64,000 nucleotides of DNA, from positions 1,054,001 through 1,118,000 of the forward strand of contig NZ_CP009526.1 of assembly GCF_000969985.1 (NCBI RefSeq), read 5' to 3'. Position 1 is the first letter of the stretch. The number at the start of each line of letters is the position of its first letter. Shown piece by piece: positions 1,423 through 55,582 of this stretch. Both the position numbers and the translations under genes were made by a program. This stretch comes from Methanosarcina barkeri str. Wiesmoor. GTDB lineage: Archaea; Halobacteriota; Methanosarcinia; Methanosarcinales; Methanosarcinaceae. Below the pieces are notes generated by a model. The model did not search any database. It saw only the letters and a program-made list of their open reading frames with translations, and was not told the DNA's origin.

Positions 1423-1593
1423 TATATCCTTCAGATAGTCAAAGATAAAGATCCGGTGACATATAGCATTGTGCTTCAGATTCTCACTGATGAGATTGAG
1501 TATGAAGATGATCTGCAAGCCGTGAATGTAAGACATCGGCTTGCTTCAGCACAAATACTATCTTGTGCAGTAGTGAAAAAAGGGGATAATTAA
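1423..1593 (+). pseudogene. Remnant of a ferritin-like (Dps/bacterioferritin) gene
   Basis: The frame ending at the TAA that overlaps the cydA start reads KDKDPVTYSIVLQILTDEIE and then YEDDLQAV. This resembles the last helix of archaeal Dps-like and bacterioferritin-type proteins (DPVTYxxxLxILxDExxHExDLxxL). Only this tail survives; a TGA closes the frame upstream at 1420-1422 and no start or other ferritin helices are present. It is transcribed in the same direction, between a Fur-type regulator and cytochrome bd oxidase, as expected for an iron/oxygen-defence gene that has been mostly deleted. The family call is from memory of the motif. Confidence 0.5.
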
Positions 1594-2909
1594 TGATTGA
1601 ATTGCTTTTATTAAGCCGGCTTCAGTTTGCCATAACAGCTGCGTTCCATTTCCTATTCGTTCCACTAACTTTGGGATTAGCATTATTAGTGGCAGTCATG
1701 GAAACAATGTACTACAGGAACAAAGATGAAACCTGGCGAAAAATGGCTGACTTCTGGGGTAATATATTCAAGATAAACTTTGCAATAGGTCTAGTATCAG
1801 GTATTACACTGACTTTTCAGTTAGGTACTAACTGGGGTGCCTATGCAGAATTCATGGGAGATGTCTTTGGACCACCTTTGGCTATGGAAGCGTTATTTGC
1901 TTTCTTCCTTGAAGGGACTTTCCTTGGAGCATGGATATTCTTGGGCCATAACCGTCAGAAATTAAAGGCATTTTCCATGTGGATGGTCGCTCTAGGTACT
2001 AACATATCTTCATTATGGATTCTCACTGCTAATGGTTTTATGCAGCATCCCGTAGGCTATGAGATGGCTGCTGACGGGAGCAAGGTGGTTATGACAGATT
2101 TCCTTGCTCTAATTACGAACGGCTATGTTTGGTACATGCTGATACACACTCTGCTTGCAGCTTACCTGTTGACCTCATTCGTGGTCATGGGGATCTGTGC
2201 ATATCATTTCCTTAAAGGGAATAACAATGAAGTGTTTAAAAAATCTTTCAACATAGCAGTTATCATAGCACTCGCTACTGCAGTCATGCTTCCAGTTCTT
2301 GGTCATGGTTATGCACAATATGTTACTGCGCTTCAACCTACAAAAGGAGCGGCAATGGATGCGATATGGGAAACAAGATCTTCAGTGCCTATGTATCTAA
2401 TACAGGTACCCGATTCAAGCACAGGCTCCAATAGTGTTCAGCTGCTGGGAATTCCAGGTCTTGCAAGTTTCCTGTATACAGGAAGTTTTAGCGGAACGAT
2501 AACAGGACTTAACCAGCTACCTCAGGATGAATTACCGCCTGTAGAAATGATATTCTGGAGCTTCAGGTTAATGACAATTCTGGGTTCCCTGTTCATCATA
2601 GTGGCTCTTTTAGGCTTATATCTTCAAAAATCAGGCAAGCTATATACATCTAAAAAATATCTAAAGTTGCTAATGTGGTCTATTCCTCTTCCATATCTTA
2701 CTATTACTGCTGGCTGGATTGTAGCTGAGGTAGGAAGGCAGCCATGGATGGTATATGGTTTGCTAAGGACAGCTAATGGTGTATCATCGGTTCCCACATC
2801 CGACGTCTTGTTAAGTATTAGCCTTATAAGCGCATTTTATATGGTCCTGCTTATCTTTGAGATATACCTCATAAAGAAAACCGTGGTCAATGCGACAGGA
2901 GTTGAGTGA
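1593..2909 (+). CDS. cydA: Cytochrome bd quinol oxidase subunit I
   Basis: 438 residues, about nine membrane segments. It is the catalytic haem-bearing subunit of cytochrome bd oxidase, which oxidises quinol-type carriers and reduces O2 to water at the membrane. Visible ligand regions are H19 in the first helix (TAAFHFLF), the histidine at about 185 (YMLIHTLLAAYLL) and GRQPW at 381-385. The quinol loop is short, as in the Bacillus/archaeal branch; E. coli CydA is about 520 residues. The start overlaps the preceding remnant's stop by one base, and AAAAAGGGGAT serves as the ribosome site. It is cotranscribed with cydB. In methanogens the enzyme is thought to remove oxygen rather than conserve energy. 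Confidence 0.95.
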   Translation: MIELLLLSRLQFAITAAFHFLFVPLTLGLALLVAVMETMYYRNKDETWRKMADFWGNIFKINFAIGLVSGITLTFQLGTNWGAYAEFMGDVFGPPLAMEALFAFFLEGTFLGAWIFLGHNRQKLKAFSMWMVALGTNISSLWILTANGFMQHPVGYEMAADGSKVVMTDFLALITNGYVWYMLIHTLLAAYLLTSFVVMGICAYHFLKGNNNEVFKKSFNIAVIIALATAVMLPVLGHGYAQYVTALQPTKGAAMDAIWETRSSVPMYLIQVPDSSTGSNSVQLLGIPGLASFLYTGSFSGTITGLNQLPQDELPPVEMIFWSFRLMTILGSLFIIVALLGLYLQKSGKLYTSKKYLKLLMWSIPLPYLTITAGWIVAEVGRQPWMVYGLLRTANGVSSVPTSDVLLSISLISAFYMVLLIFEIYLIKKTVVNATGVE

Positions 2910-3955
2910 ATATGTTCGATTTCCTTACTCATGATATGCTTGCTATTATCTGGTTCTTCCTGTGGTGTGTAATATGGGGAGTTTACTTTATTGTCGACTC
3001 CTTTTCCCTTGGGGCAGGCCTTCTGGTACCTTTTATTGCCACAGATAAGGCCCAGAGGATGCAAATCCAGAGCTCTGTTGGTCCTTTCTGGGGCGGCAAT
3101 GAGGTATGGCTCATCCTGGCTGCAGGTGGAACATTTGCTGCATTCCCTCTGGTATTCTCGAAGATGTTTACTTTCCTGTATCTTCCTATGATGTTGCTGC
3201 TTATCGGCTTAATTGCGAGGGGAATTTCCATAGAATATCTTCACAAGGATGAAAATCCCCATATACAGAAAATCCTTATGTGGGGATGGTTTGCTGGAAG
3301 CCTGCTGATTTCTCTGGTTCTGGGAGTTGCATTTGCAAACTTCTTCAAGGGGCTTGAAATTGCTTCAGGAGGCGTTTATATCGGTACCCTTATTGGACTT
3401 TTTAGCCCTTATGCACTGATAGGCGGTGTCTTATTTGTGCTTATGAGTGTTACTTCAGGTGCGTTCTGGATCAATGTTAAAACTGAAGGGGCCATAGCTA
3501 TAAAAGCAGGTGATCTGGCAAAGAAGAGCGCTCTTATTGTACTTGTACTTGCTCTGGTCTATCTGGCATATTCCTTTATGGGTATAGAAGGTTTTACAAC
3601 CAACTATTCAGCCATGCCAGCTCTGTACTTATTGCCAGGTCTTGCGGTAGTGACAGCTGTTCTTGCTGTGTTTTTTGCAAAAAAGGACAGGATATTTCCT
3701 GCCTTTTGCAGCAATCTCCTAGCGTTTCTTTTCGTTGTTGAAAGCGGGCTTGCAAGTATCTATCCTTACATGCTTAAGTCTTCTGTATCTTCTGAATATG
3801 GAATAGATATCTTTGAGGCAGCATCAAGCCACATGACCTTGAGCGTCATGCTGGGGGGAGCATTGGTATTCGTGCCCATAATCATCATCTACCAGCTATG
3901 GGCATATACGTTGTTCAGGGAAAAGATAAAAGAAACAGACCAGGTCGAGTACTGA
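2906..3955 (+). CDS. cydB: Cytochrome bd quinol oxidase subunit II
   Basis: About 349 residues with roughly eight to nine hydrophobic helices. It is the partner subunit that assembles with CydA. Family features include the N-terminal WGVYFIVDSFSLGAGLLVPF, the WGGNEVWLILAAGGTFAAFP loop and FEAASS near the C-terminus. A GTG at 2906 overlaps the cydA stop by four bases; an ATG at 2912 is an equally good start, because AGGAG at 2897-2901 lies 4 and 10 bases upstream respectively. No cydC/cydD assembly transporter follows. Confidence 0.93.
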   Translation: MNMFDFLTHDMLAIIWFFLWCVIWGVYFIVDSFSLGAGLLVPFIATDKAQRMQIQSSVGPFWGGNEVWLILAAGGTFAAFPLVFSKMFTFLYLPMMLLLIGLIARGISIEYLHKDENPHIQKILMWGWFAGSLLISLVLGVAFANFFKGLEIASGGVYIGTLIGLFSPYALIGGVLFVLMSVTSGAFWINVKTEGAIAIKAGDLAKKSALIVLVLALVYLAYSFMGIEGFTTNYSAMPALYLLPGLAVVTAVLAVFFAKKDRIFPAFCSNLLAFLFVVESGLASIYPYMLKSSVSSEYGIDIFEAASSHMTLSVMLGGALVFVPIIIIYQLWAYTLFREKIKETDQVEY

Positions 3956-3988
3956 CCTGCTTTCTCTTATCTTTTACTTTTTTTACTT
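3941..3988 (+). terminator. Terminator of the cyd operon
   Basis: CAGGTC-GAGTACT-GACCTG (3941-3959) spans the cydB stop codon and is followed by a long T-rich run to about 3988. Confidence 0.6.
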
Positions 3989-4231
3989 TATCTGTGAAGA
4001 GACGAACAATGCTAAGCTTTGCTAAATATCCCAAAGTATGAAGGCTTTGAAGGAGTTCAACATAAAAAAAGAAAAGTTAGTGAAGATAAAACCAATATGA
4101 ACAAAACTGAAAAGTCAGTTCTGCTCTTTTTCATATACGTTGAATTATCTCAGGCATTTGACTTTGATTTTTGCCTGGAAATTGAAAACTAAGGGCATAG
4201 TAGGAAAAAGTTTAGAGATAAACTTATCCGT
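3989..4231. other. Non-coding gap, convergent cydB and zinc-ribbon genes
   Basis: AT-rich with no open frame or structure I can support. Confidence 0.5.
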
Positions 4232-40024: not shown

Positions 40025-40156
40025 TCTTTGATAAAATTATGTTGCTGCTGGTGGAGATACTTTTCGGCTTTTTTACAGCATGCCTGGATATCAAGTCACG
40101 GCCAACATAAACTGTTCTTTTCATTATTGAGCTTATCCCAAAACCTATTTTATTCT

Positions 40157-40166
40157 AAATCACTAT
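40157..40166. repeat. Target-site duplication of the IS4 element, left
   Basis: AAATCACTAT, repeated exactly at 41620-41629 on the other side of the element. Confidence 0.85.
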
Positions 40167-41619
40167 CATTGGTCATCGGTTAAGGATTTATTTCCTTCTT
40201 CTGTTACTCTTTTTGAATCCAATTTTTCATTTATTACTCAAACCATTCATCTCTAAACCTTTCTCTGTTTACATGAGGATCTAATGCTTGACTTTCATAT
40301 ACGCTCATTATCGTTTCAAAAGTTCTTTGAATTCCACATCTATGCAGAATTACTGTCAATAAATCTGATGCATTCTCTGCAAATATTGTACTCCAACGTA
40401 ACTGCGTATATCTAGCCATTTTTTCAGGATGAGTTGTTGATTTTCTGACAAGAGAATAGATTCTTCTGCTAACGATTAGTGTCAATATTGCTGTCCAGAT
40501 TAGAGCTTCAATTACCTGCACATTCTTTGTTTCAAGAACGTCCAGCGAGTATTTGCTTTTCAATTCCTTAAACAACAGTTCTATGTCCCATCTTGCCCCA
40601 TATAAGTTTGCAATGTCTTTTGCATTCAAAATATCTTTCTGAATATTTGTGATGTAAATGTGGTATTTTTCATCCTCATCGTTATATACGGCAACAAGGC
40701 GTACAATCATCTCGTCCTGTTTTTGCTTGCCTTTATACTCTCTTCTTTTGAATTCTATTTTTACAACTGCATCAATATCTTTTCCAGAAAGTTGCTTAAT
40801 ACATTCACTAACAGGTTTTCCAGCGAACTCTTTGCTTTTTGTCTTAGAAAGTTCCTCTTCAATAGAAACAAGAATAGGGTCCATATTCTTCCTAATCCTT
40901 GAGACAAAATATCCCCCATTTTCTTCAACTCTTGCAAACATTTGAGTTTTGTAGAAACCAAGATCAACAAGGAGAATATGGTCTTTGATCCAGGGACCTA
41001 TTTTTAATGTCTTTATCTCAGCTGTTTTTTCAGAGTACAGAGCAATGGTTCTAGGTCCGTTAGCAATTGCACTTACCATAACTCCAACTTTTACTCCTGC
41101 AGCTACTGTTCTTGATCTTGCTGCAGGAAACCTGTCTGCTAACGAGGAATGGAGACGAACAATTGTGCTGTCCTGAATGACAACATCTTGGAAGGTTTCG
41201 AGTTTCTTGCTAAGTTTCCTACCAGGTTCTTTTGCAAGCTCTTCCATGCCATGAATTACACACTGGTGAAGAAACTCAACAAGTTCTGGAGTAAAACGAT
41301 AGTACCAGCTGCTATCACTTATGGTTTTTTGTGACTCAGTTTCATATTCTCGTTTTAAACTGGCAAGTGTACGCTGCAAGCGTACACCAAAACTGAGAGT
41401 TAAAACCCAAAAGATAATGACAGGGTCAATTTTACGTTCACGTACTATAAGACCAGTTTCTTTGGCAGTTTGCCTTAACCACTCTTCGGGAAACATTTCC
41501 CGAAGAGAGTCTTCAAGAGTAGGTGGGGGACAAGGAGACATAGATACAGAGATATTTAGATTATTAATATAAAAAACACATACAAGAGAGGGAATTTAAT
41601 GCTTAACCGATGACGCATG
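40167..41619 (-). mobile_element. Complete IS4-family (ISH8-like) insertion sequence, 1,453 bp
   Basis: The ends are 18-base inverted repeats with two mismatches: CATTGGTCATCGGTTAAG on the left and CTTAACCGATGACGCATG on the right. The flanks carry a 10-bp duplication, AAATCACTAT. The only gene is the transposase at 40234-41541. Ten-base duplications fit the ISH8 subgroup of IS4. All parts are intact, so the element may be active. Confidence 0.92.
40234..41541 (-). CDS. IS4-family transposase
   Basis: 435 residues. DDE catalytic parts are visible: the first Asp in VIQDSTIVRL, the second in LLVDLGFYK, and the Y-(2)-R-(3)-E-(6)-K signature in YGARWDIELLFKELK. Full length and uninterrupted. It cuts and joins the element ends on DNA. 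Starts at an ATG about 80 bases inside the right end. Confidence 0.93.
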   Translation of the reverse strand: MSPCPPPTLEDSLREMFPEEWLRQTAKETGLIVRERKIDPVIIFWVLTLSFGVRLQRTLASLKREYETESQKTISDSSWYYRFTPELVEFLHQCVIHGMEELAKEPGRKLSKKLETFQDVVIQDSTIVRLHSSLADRFPAARSRTVAAGVKVGVMVSAIANGPRTIALYSEKTAEIKTLKIGPWIKDHILLVDLGFYKTQMFARVEENGGYFVSRIRKNMDPILVSIEEELSKTKSKEFAGKPVSECIKQLSGKDIDAVVKIEFKRREYKGKQKQDEMIVRLVAVYNDEDEKYHIYITNIQKDILNAKDIANLYGARWDIELLFKELKSKYSLDVLETKNVQVIEALIWTAILTLIVSRRIYSLVRKSTTHPEKMARYTQLRWSTIFAENASDLLTVILHRCGIQRTFETIMSVYESQALDPHVNRERFRDEWFE

Positions 41620-41629
41620 AAATCACTAT
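41620..41629. repeat. Target-site duplication of the IS4 element, right
   Basis: AAATCACTAT, matching 40157-40166. The remaining 41630-41963 is the presumed rps13 promoter and leader, with a TTATATA-like element near 41812. Confidence 0.85.
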
Positions 41630-41963
41630 GAGTTTTCAGGATCAGTTTAATGATTAGGTATTCAACTGACTGTTCCATATACGAAATTAAAAAATCAAAA
41701 ATTCAAAAATCAAATTTTGAGTTTCAGGATAGGCTCATTCAGTAACTTTTCTACTATCGGCTTTCAGTCCTTCCGAACATCCGCTTTCAGCTGGGGCTAA
41801 GCGCAGATATCCTTATATACTGGTAACAGCATGTAAATGAATTCATCAGTATGTGCTGTAAAGAAGCTCCTTTAGAGAGCTGCTCCTGACTTTTTCGTGT
41901 ATTCTTTTAGGGTATTCGATCAGGGGCTACAGGATGCTGTATACATTCCCCTGGAGGGAATAT

Positions 41964-53700: not shown

Positions 53701-54550
53701 GCTTGCAGTCCTTCTTGGTTCCGGTTCTGCAGAGACGGAAGAAGAATTTTATGAAAACTCCCGGCTCTGGGCTCAACGAACCGAGCTAGAAAACAGGAAA
53801 AAAGAAGCTGAACAGCAGATCTGGAGAATTTCCGGAAGTGACGAAGAGTACAGGATTTTCATAAAAGAACTGCAAGCTTCTGATCCTTCAGGTTTGAAAG
53901 AAGAAAATCGCAGGCTGGAGGAATGCCTGAAATCTCTGGAACAGGATATTTCAGATACTATAGACAGGCGCGGAGCGATACGAAACCAGATTGGGCAGCT
54001 CGAACAAGGAAGTGAAGGTTCTCTGACAAGAGTAATGCAGGAAAGCCTGCTGGAAGAACTTCACGAAAAGTCAAGGGAATGGGCTTCTCTGGTTCTAGCT
54101 CGTGAGATCCTTGCTAAAGCAGTTAAAGTCTATGAAAAGGAAAGGCAGCCTGCAGTTATCGTGGAAGCCCAGGCCTTTTTCTCAAAAATTACCGGAGGCA
54201 GGTACACGAGGATTTATTCCCCACTCAACTCTACCGAAATCTATGTTGAAGACCGGGACGGGCGTCAGAAGAGCATTCAGGAACTCAGCAGGGGAACAGC
54301 CGAACAGCTTTATCTCTCTCTGCGCTTCGGTTTCATCAGGGAATTCGGCAGGCATTCGGAATCTCTTCCGATTGTTTTTGATGACGTGCTGGTGAATTTT
54401 GACCCTGAACGCTGCAAAAGCACCTGTGAAGCCATAAAGGACCTTGCATCAGATAACCAGATCTTTTATTTCACTTGCCATCCCGAAACCGTACGGATGC
54501 TTGTAGAAAGTTTTCCTGAAACCAGGGCTGTAGACCTTGACGCAGTATAA
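50696..54550 (+). CDS. YhaN/Rad50-like ATPase with membrane hairpin
   Basis: 1,284 residues. Walker A GANEAGKST is at about 31-39 (QINAIHIDGFGKF start). Long coiled coils run from about 180 to 580 and 640 to 1130. At about 594-635 two hydrophobic segments (GMVLLAGCIGLVYES, LSGLVIFLLLFATSAVYFL) form a membrane hairpin where Rad50 has its zinc hook. The C-terminal lobe has the signature ELSRGTAEQLYLSLRFGF and Walker B LPIVFDDVLVNFD. The layout matches YhaN, thought to work with the YhaO-type nuclease near the membrane. Start ATG 50696 with GGAGG upstream. Confidence 0.9.
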   Translation: MQINAIHIDGFGKFSSLSMEGLPSGLVVFTGANEAGKSTLFTFIRRMFFGIPNTRLCNLYPPLEGGKHGGRLAVVDSAGDRWVIERSAGRKEDVKVVLPDGNTGGRAELLKLLGHADRNVFENIYAFGLEELQSFETLNDQSINSKLYSAGTGVGVSISGLMNSISSVENSLYRPRGSKPLINELFRKIGKTEVKIAEFERVQKKYDSLHFELEQKTLEIGQLKEKSQNIRKKLNHIQNLLSIWEDWKIFCESKTTLESLPELESFPEKGEEKLMRVQERIEEIRETISKLQQDLDKNAVKERNLSPDESLLKQKDAVLELGSGIEKYRSEEKVLPSLEMNLRQEKAELSELLLELGPAWDEKALERFDRSIPAKESVIQMRRSVDEIEDKIKETGNELQQILNSIERVLQENDLFEESLLVHRDQVVELGNGIEKYQADKDFLLSGTQELQDRKAELRETLSGLGEGWDETALGLFEHSIPSKETVFRKQREMDEAEKTIERYRDRLELALEEIKEVCEEIEVLKEKIEVYSILPRPEEVKQDLEAVSYLRVTYPLLREKEGELKGLEKEEMLFAALRPRETKHEDGLPLWPAGMVLLAGCIGLVYESINGTLLSGLVIFLLLFATSAVYFLKATNKSSIPPAEEEHLEDSESRKQNVKDSKEKLFREISALKASMKARAKKCGFEDIPDPSVREQKADELQRAMVELKTAWELRQREEKLQKKLDKLNSNYIELKETIRAQEANQEEIFQEWKAWLISSGLSPELSPEHVLEIFSAIRACLEKQKNIKELEKQVKLKEATVKKYEEKACSILEACRRPISGIALESEIAKLREDVSFAFNQAERVRKLEAESEGLNRKKEELEARLLEEKKTRNAFAEKWTNWLGTYGLDPSLSVESVLEIFSVIWTCFDRQRAIRKLEEQIASSRKSIEAYEAKVAGVMQVCGRPLSGLSFDTQVEKLRSDLEKASDEARNLQQLKTKSEELKIELEAARDKYKEAAEELAVLLGSGSAETEEEFYENSRLWAQRTELENRKKEAEQQIWRISGSDEEYRIFIKELQASDPSGLKEENRRLEECLKSLEQDISDTIDRRGAIRNQIGQLEQGSEGSLTRVMQESLLEELHEKSREWASLVLAREILAKAVKVYEKERQPAVIVEAQAFFSKITGGRYTRIYSPLNSTEIYVEDRDGRQKSIQELSRGTAEQLYLSLRFGFIREFGRHSESLPIVFDDVLVNFDPERCKSTCEAIKDLASDNQIFYFTCHPETVRMLVESFPETRAVDLDAV

Positions 54551-54692: not shown

Positions 54693-54902
54693 GAATCGAA
54701 TTCATGCGTCTTCGGTTAAGTGAGGAATCGTGACAAATTGCATCAATTTCCTCAACATATATCAAATATTTCAATAAATTGTAAAATGGAACAGAGCATC
54801 GATTTCATGTAAATCGGTCAAAATTTAAGGCTGGCTTCTAATGCAAAATCGATAGCTATCAGGCAAGAAAATTCCTTAACCGATGACAAATGGAATCGAA
54901 TT
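54693..54902. repeat. 10-bp target duplications around the 190-bp MITE
   Basis: GAATCGAATT occurs at 54693-54702 and again at 54893-54902, immediately outside the element ends. Confidence 0.88.
54703..54892. mobile_element. 190-bp MITE related to the IS4 element at 40 kb
   Basis: The left end CATGCGTCTTCGGTTAAG and right end CTTAACCGATGACAAATG match the 18-base ends of the 40167-41619 element at 16 or more positions. The interior is non-coding and unlike the transposase gene. A short internal inverted repeat (TGAGGAA/TTCCTCA) lies near the left end. It is flanked by a perfect 10-bp duplication. It can be explained as a non-autonomous passenger of that transposase. Confidence 0.9.
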
Positions 54903-55116: not shown

Positions 55117-55488
55117 TTATCTTCTCTGTCGGCTGGCTCTGCATTCTTTGATAACATCAGCAGGGCTGGAGTATTCTTTATCCGGGCAGGCCTCAAGAGC
55201 TCTTATTATTACGTCGCGGACATGAAGGTTCCTGGCTTCATTGATGAGCTCCTGCTTTGTTGCAGGATATTTCCTGTTATGGAAAATCTCGACAGCCTTT
55301 TGAAAACCTTCAAATTCATTGATAATGTCATCAGCGCTGTTGTATTCCCGGTCTGGAATGTTTTCAAGAGCCTGCATTGTGTCACCAATAATATTCTGCT
55401 TTCGGGCTTCGTCGATGACCTGATTCTTCGTTGCAGGATATTTTATATTTCCTAAAATACTCTGAACTTCAGTAGTACTTGCTTGCAT
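55117..55488 (-). CDS. DUF2795 repeat protein
   Basis: 123 residues holding two copies of the DUF2795 motif: KYPATKNQVIDEARKQNI with ALENIPDREYNSADDIINEF, and KYPATKQELINEARNLHV with ALEACPDKEYSSPADVIKEC. Each is a small helical unit of about 55 residues. Function unknown. ATG 55488 (eight bases from GGGG) is chosen because the frame upstream only reads through tandem repeats; ATG 55503 is an alternative. Confidence 0.8.
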   Translation of the reverse strand: MQASTTEVQSILGNIKYPATKNQVIDEARKQNIIGDTMQALENIPDREYNSADDIINEFEGFQKAVEIFHNRKYPATKQELINEARNLHVRDVIIRALEACPDKEYSSPADVIKECRASRQRR

Positions 55489-55495
55489 TGCTTTT

Positions 55496-55582
55496 TCCCC
55501 CATATTGTGATTTTCCCCGTATTGTGATTTTTCCCATATTGTAATTTTTCCCATATTGTAATTTTTCCCGTATTGTGATTTT
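55496..55582. repeat. Five tandem 16-18-bp repeats in the DUF2795 leader
   Basis: Units like TTTTCCCATATTGTAAT and TTTTCCCCGTATTGTGA are repeated in tandem with small changes, just upstream of the gene at 55488 on the minus strand. They could change promoter or leader spacing. Confidence 0.8.

Follow-up and report, generated by a model that had tools for sequence, protein, structure and literature searches.

The window analysed here, a stretch of 64,000 nucleotides (G000:C2:1054001-1118000) within a 4.9-Mb genome, contains a 190-bp element without an open reading frame. On one side of it is a gene that ends at 54550 (AAA_27, SMC-like), and on the other an opposing DUF2795 gene (55117-55554). 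The locus raises the question of what this element is and which enzyme moves it. The features of the element, and of the IS proposed as its partner, are as follows.

54693-54702, no strand: left 10-bp target-site duplication (TSD), GAATCGAATT
54703-54892, plus strand: MITE of 190 bp without an ORF; the family consensus has stops in all six frames
54703-54720, plus strand: left terminal inverted repeat (TIR), CATGCGTCTTCGGTTAAG, 17/18 to the IS end on the transposase-start side
54797-54805, plus strand: 5' arm of an inner inverted repeat, consensus TATCGATTT, CATCGATTT in the window copy
54846-54854, plus strand: 3' arm of the inner inverted repeat, AAATCGATA
54875-54892, minus strand: right TIR, CATTTGTCATCGGTTAAG, 17/18 to the other IS end
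54893-54902, no strand: right 10-bp TSD, GAATCGAATT, a perfect copy of the left one
40157-40166, no strand: left TSD of the IS, AAATCACTAT
40167-41619, minus strand: intact IS of 1453 bp, IS4 family, ISH8 group, proposed source of transposase in trans
40234-41541, minus strand: IS4-family transposase, 435 aa, DDE_Tnp_1, with the YREK motif YGARWDIELLFKELK
41620-41629, no strand: right TSD of the IS, AAATCACTAT

The element at 54703-54892 is a MITE. It is short and lacks a transposase ORF, its TIRs match those of an autonomous element at 17 of 18 positions on either side, and its TSD has the 10-bp length of that of the IS. It has many dispersed copies, and empty sites are found in relatives, that of the window copy itself being weak. 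The initial annotation had described a perfect 10-bp duplication around the 190-bp element and one of 10 bp around the IS, and both descriptions are correct, that of the IS being perfect too. It had also suggested looking for paired ends elsewhere in the genome, and further copies are plentiful: the genome gives 33 BLASTN matches, some 20 of which are nearly full-length, with identities of 69-100%. Across Methanosarcina, matches occur in 25 of 30 species genomes, and the per-genome counts of this survey are to be read as "at least".

The TSDs were assessed on 132 distinct near-full copies from the loci fetched from Methanosarcina genomes. Sixty-seven of these are flanked by a perfect 10-bp duplication, where 0.06 would be expected from randomly paired flanks, and allowing up to one mismatch raises the number to 82 (about 0.4 expected). 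Lengths of 8, 9, 11 and 12 bp, measured from the ends of the element, fit only 1, 1, 0 and 0 copies, respectively. The end pattern CATNNGTCNTCGGTTAAG occurs 17 + 17 times in the 4.9-Mb genome, and its reversed control does not occur at all; together with the mismatched-flank control for the TSDs, this rules out a chance repeat. The duplicated targets give a palindromic logo, (A/G)A-W-W-N-N-W-W-T-(T/C), or (A/G)A-N6-T(T/C) in short form. Insertion points with a good TSD fall into a stop-free frame of at least 150 aa in 7% of cases, versus 71% of random window positions, and this avoidance of genes fits selection against genic insertion. Copies with a perfect TSD have a median identity of 95% to their nearest relative, compared with 90% for copies without one, as is expected of young insertions.

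Empty sites were sought by joining the flanks at one TSD copy and aligning them to relatives. The site of one copy (L003) aligns straight through in L279 (90% identity), where the target is present once and the MITE is missing. The same was seen for L010 in both L280 (84%) and L296 (77%), and for L017 in L283 (82%). At the window copy, the left flank is kept without the MITE in three relatives (L093-L095), but the junction aligns weakly in diverged intergenic sequence, so the empty-site claim is based on the other copies. The comparison with relatives that the initial annotation had suggested is clean for three other copies and weak for the copy that it described; given also the many further copies, the refuting outcome that it had named did not occur.

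The IS at 40167-41619 encodes a DDE transposase of the IS4 family (NF033592, 250.8 bits against a cut-off of 115; PF01609, 1.5e-20), with the YREK signature Y-(2)-R-(3)-E-(6)-K present as YGARWDIELLFKELK at residue 314. The ISH8 group has been described as elements of 1400-1800 bp with CAT ends, T at position 15, YREK and 10-bp direct repeats (De Palmenaer et al. 2008, PMC2266710). Judged by its size, ends, YREK motif and 10-bp repeat, the IS fits this description: it is 1453 bp long, has CAT ends with T at position 15 (CATTGGTCATCGGTTAAG), and is flanked by two copies of AAATCACTAT. Four intact copies (99-100% identity), one copy at 92% and additional relics are present in the genome, and all relatives of the IS found in the genome collection are from Methanosarcina, the genus with which this methanogen genome groups. 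Separately, the IS is bordered (40129-41736) on one side by GAGCTTATCCCAAAAC, at 40129, and on the other by an inverted counterpart, GAGCCTATCCTGAAAC, which ends near 41736. The IS appears to be inserted into another repeat, which resembles a separate MITE of roughly 150 bp.

The correspondence between the ends of the MITE and those of the IS, which the initial annotation had reported as a match of 18-base repeats, is confirmed, though at 17 of 18 positions per end and not exactly. The left end CATGCGTCTTCGGTTAAG pairs in this way with the terminus of the IS on the transposase-start side (CATGCGTCATCGGTTAAG), and the right end CATTTGTCATCGGTTAAG with the opposite IS end (CATTGGTCATCGGTTAAG). 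Compared with each other, the two ends of the MITE are identical at only 15 of 18 positions. Each MITE end is closest to its own IS counterpart, so the asymmetry of the IS ends is kept in the MITE. A few MITEs, such as L195 and L204, have swapped ends, with left-type sequence at the right. In most copies the likeness to the IS ends about 23 bp inward, or at 27 bp at best; one copy has a 32-base gapped match.

The MITE interior is not built from present-day IS sequence, and belongs to an old lineage of near-constant length that is found in several genera. The initial view that the interiors are unrelated is borne out by every IS copy examined, and an origin of the MITE by simple deletion from the present IS is rejected for these copies. 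It is nevertheless possible, if doubtful, that the interior is a decayed IS, that is, an internal-deletion derivative of an ISH8-type IS that has since diverged or been lost. Many MITEs originate by internal deletion of an IS, sub-terminal sequences differ quickly between genomes among IS subfamilies, and the bases GGAATT past the 18-bp end are common to the MITE and a few ISs. Against this, none of the IS copies in the searched loci resembles the MITE beyond about 27 bp, the window IS lacks the inner motif ATCGATTT/AAATCGAT of the MITE, and the homologous interior dates back across genera. Such an origin concerns only where the MITE came from, and is compatible with mobilisation in trans by the IS transposase.

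The MITE is very probably a non-autonomous element whose ends are recognised by the ISH8-group IS4 transposase of IS copies in the same cell, and which is moved in trans. Full-length IS copies would supply a transposase that recognises both MITE ends and excises the element, which would then be reinserted in AT-rich palindromic 10-bp targets, (A/G)A-N6-T(T/C), mostly in intergenic sequence. We infer recognition and catalysis in trans from sequence comparison, and cut-and-paste chemistry would be presumed by analogy with other members of the IS4 family. The copy at 40167, which the initial annotation had singled out, may be the one that acts, as one of four near-identical intact copies in the genome. 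The case for an ISH8-type transposase as the mover is circumstantial but consistent, and is built on the end-specific TIR match, TSD length, target signature, one case of adjacency, the occurrence of this TIR system in other genera, the left end in one of these and co-distribution.

The target signature is shared, since the TSD logo of 15 IS insertions (including the IS-plus-MITE unit of L128) is nearly identical to that of the MITE. At L128 (genome G009, 1435-3079) a MITE directly adjoins an IS and the ten bases AATCTCTATT are present three times, suggesting that one element probably inserted into the duplicated target of the other; the pair could in principle move as a composite. In genus g11 the end of the local IS, CATGTGTCATCGGTTAAGAA, is also the left end of several MITE copies. 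As for co-distribution, each of the 11 Methanosarcina genomes that contain a near-intact IS gives 18 or more MITE matches, and 4 of the 19 other genomes of the genus give at least 10 (Fisher p 5e-5, in a test that takes species as independent, which they are not).

Some observations count against the partnership. The likeness to the IS is limited to the terminal 18-27 bp or so. At position 9 of the left end, nearly all Methanosarcina MITEs have T and every intact IS has A, the match of the right MITE end to the local IS in g11 stops at the shared core, and genomes such as G029, G014, G015 and G025 have many MITEs with IS fragments or none. Another genome, G001, has had a recent MITE burst (mean nearest-copy identity 97.6%), and no fully intact IS copy was found there, the long copies being one that is N-terminally incomplete and one that is degenerate. 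The near-fixed T9, absent from intact ISs, and the genomes with MITEs but without an intact IS would both fit a different transposase with nearly the same end recognition, the IS at 40167 being a cousin of the true source. This is improbable, since the exact end-pattern matches examined in the own genome are ISs, MITEs or their fragments, and the IS and MITE agree in TSD length and target logo.

It is very unlikely that the family belongs to the regulatory or small-RNA repeats of the host (REP- or ERIC-like) and only mimics a MITE. Its strong intergenic bias and conserved inner inverted repeat speak for this, but the bias is also expected from selection against genic insertions, and the precise TSDs and empty sites speak against it. 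An RNA function was dropped: RNAalifold on 93 MITE copies gave zero consensus pairs, an Rfam search found no family at its gathering score, and the inner stem is 92.5% paired with covariation not clearly above shuffle and slide controls, leaving an RNA role unsupported.

The lineage extends beyond Methanosarcina. A search of 111 Methanosarcinaceae genomes from 14 genera with the family consensus found matches in 33 genomes and 7 genera. Among 15 copies extracted from outside Methanosarcina, 14 are 186-191 bp long and one, of 204 bp, apparently has an internal duplication; several have perfect 10-bp TSDs, and identities to the consensus are 64-89%. In genera g5 and g11 the right half of the MITE is usually better preserved than the left. 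One g5 copy (L309) shares 94% identity with a copy from Methanosarcina, whereas identity between the IS transposase gene of g5 and that of the window is about 75%, and this difference suggests a transfer of the MITE between the two genera; conservation of the MITE through selection could instead account for it. Carriage by phages or plasmids was also considered, and no MITE matches were found in the phage and plasmid collections; in viral_contigs there were five isolated matches to the end pattern and none to a full MITE.

The MITE had initially been called a passenger. This is apt in that its interior is not IS sequence, but it is not random cargo, as it forms one conserved lineage of near-constant length in seven genera. 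The inner inverted repeat TATCGATTT...AAATCGATA sits in the better-conserved portion of the interior. A tentative and rather unlikely reading is that the interior is under selection, for the length of about 190 bp and for this repeat as an internal binding or synapsis site, with the lineage persisting while its ends adapt. If true, a selected interior would explain how a lineage without genes lasts across genera with ends adapting to the local IS transposase. The ratio of indels to substitutions is 0.036 in young and 0.046 in old copies, which is not clearly different, so that the constancy of length stands as an observation and does not prove selection.

Related short elements are also present. 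A sister MITE, 186 bp long and sharing the TIRs of the window MITE (L149 1653-1838, L269 957-1142, L160 and L169), is found in genome G027 and in contigs titled Methanosarcina spelaei. Its copies L149 and L269 are alignable with the window MITE over the full length and have an inner TATCGATTTCA...AAATCGA repeat, and L269 has a perfect 10-bp TSD like that of the window MITE; however, the 134-bp core of the window MITE has no BLASTN match to the sister at 1e-5. A 144-bp element (L086, 2836-2979) has similar ends (CATTTGCATTCGGTTAAGG...) and a 10-bp TSD with one mismatch, and is possibly a third MITE family using the same end system. At L023/L027 (G000:C2:1159861-1160183) a MITE is split by about 137 bp, and the ends of the insert resemble the GAG..TATCCCAAAA repeat that flanks the IS; different MITE families may therefore nest in each other. 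The right flank of L019 and the left flank of L007 contain two more short repeats (query positions 3821-4000 and 2001-2111) with dozens of copies in related genomes.

Compared with the ISH8 group, the MITE has the same ends and 10-bp repeats but lacks a transposase. ISH8 insertions were reported to have no apparent target specificity (De Palmenaer et al. 2008, PMC2266710), whereas the IS and MITE described here prefer the palindromic target. As described by Kamoun et al. (2013, PMC3852290), MITEs of M. barkeri, M. mazei and M. acetivorans match their IS partners in the terminal segments only, generally over less than 20 nt, which is the anatomy of the window MITE. TIR-only Methanosarcina MITEs are thus already known, and the window MITE is a further member. 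The sole IS4 entry in Table 4 of that paper, from Haloquadratum, is 237 bp long and has a 5-bp repeat, and the table has no MITE of about 190 bp from Methanosarcina with an IS4-family partner and 10-bp repeats. The same paper has 19 MITE-like repeats without a partner, and Filee et al. (2007) have 26 families; newness is judged here against Table 4 alone, and the MITE end sequences were not found in the archaeal literature searched.

This kind of MITE is well known, and the lineage of the window MITE is unusually widespread and length-constant. A MITE family with a clear proposed partner, a target signature and empty sites occurs across half of the sampled Methanosarcinaceae genera. It makes testable whether the interiors of such MITEs are mere filler or are active in transposition, and whether such elements cross between genera or outlive their transposase.
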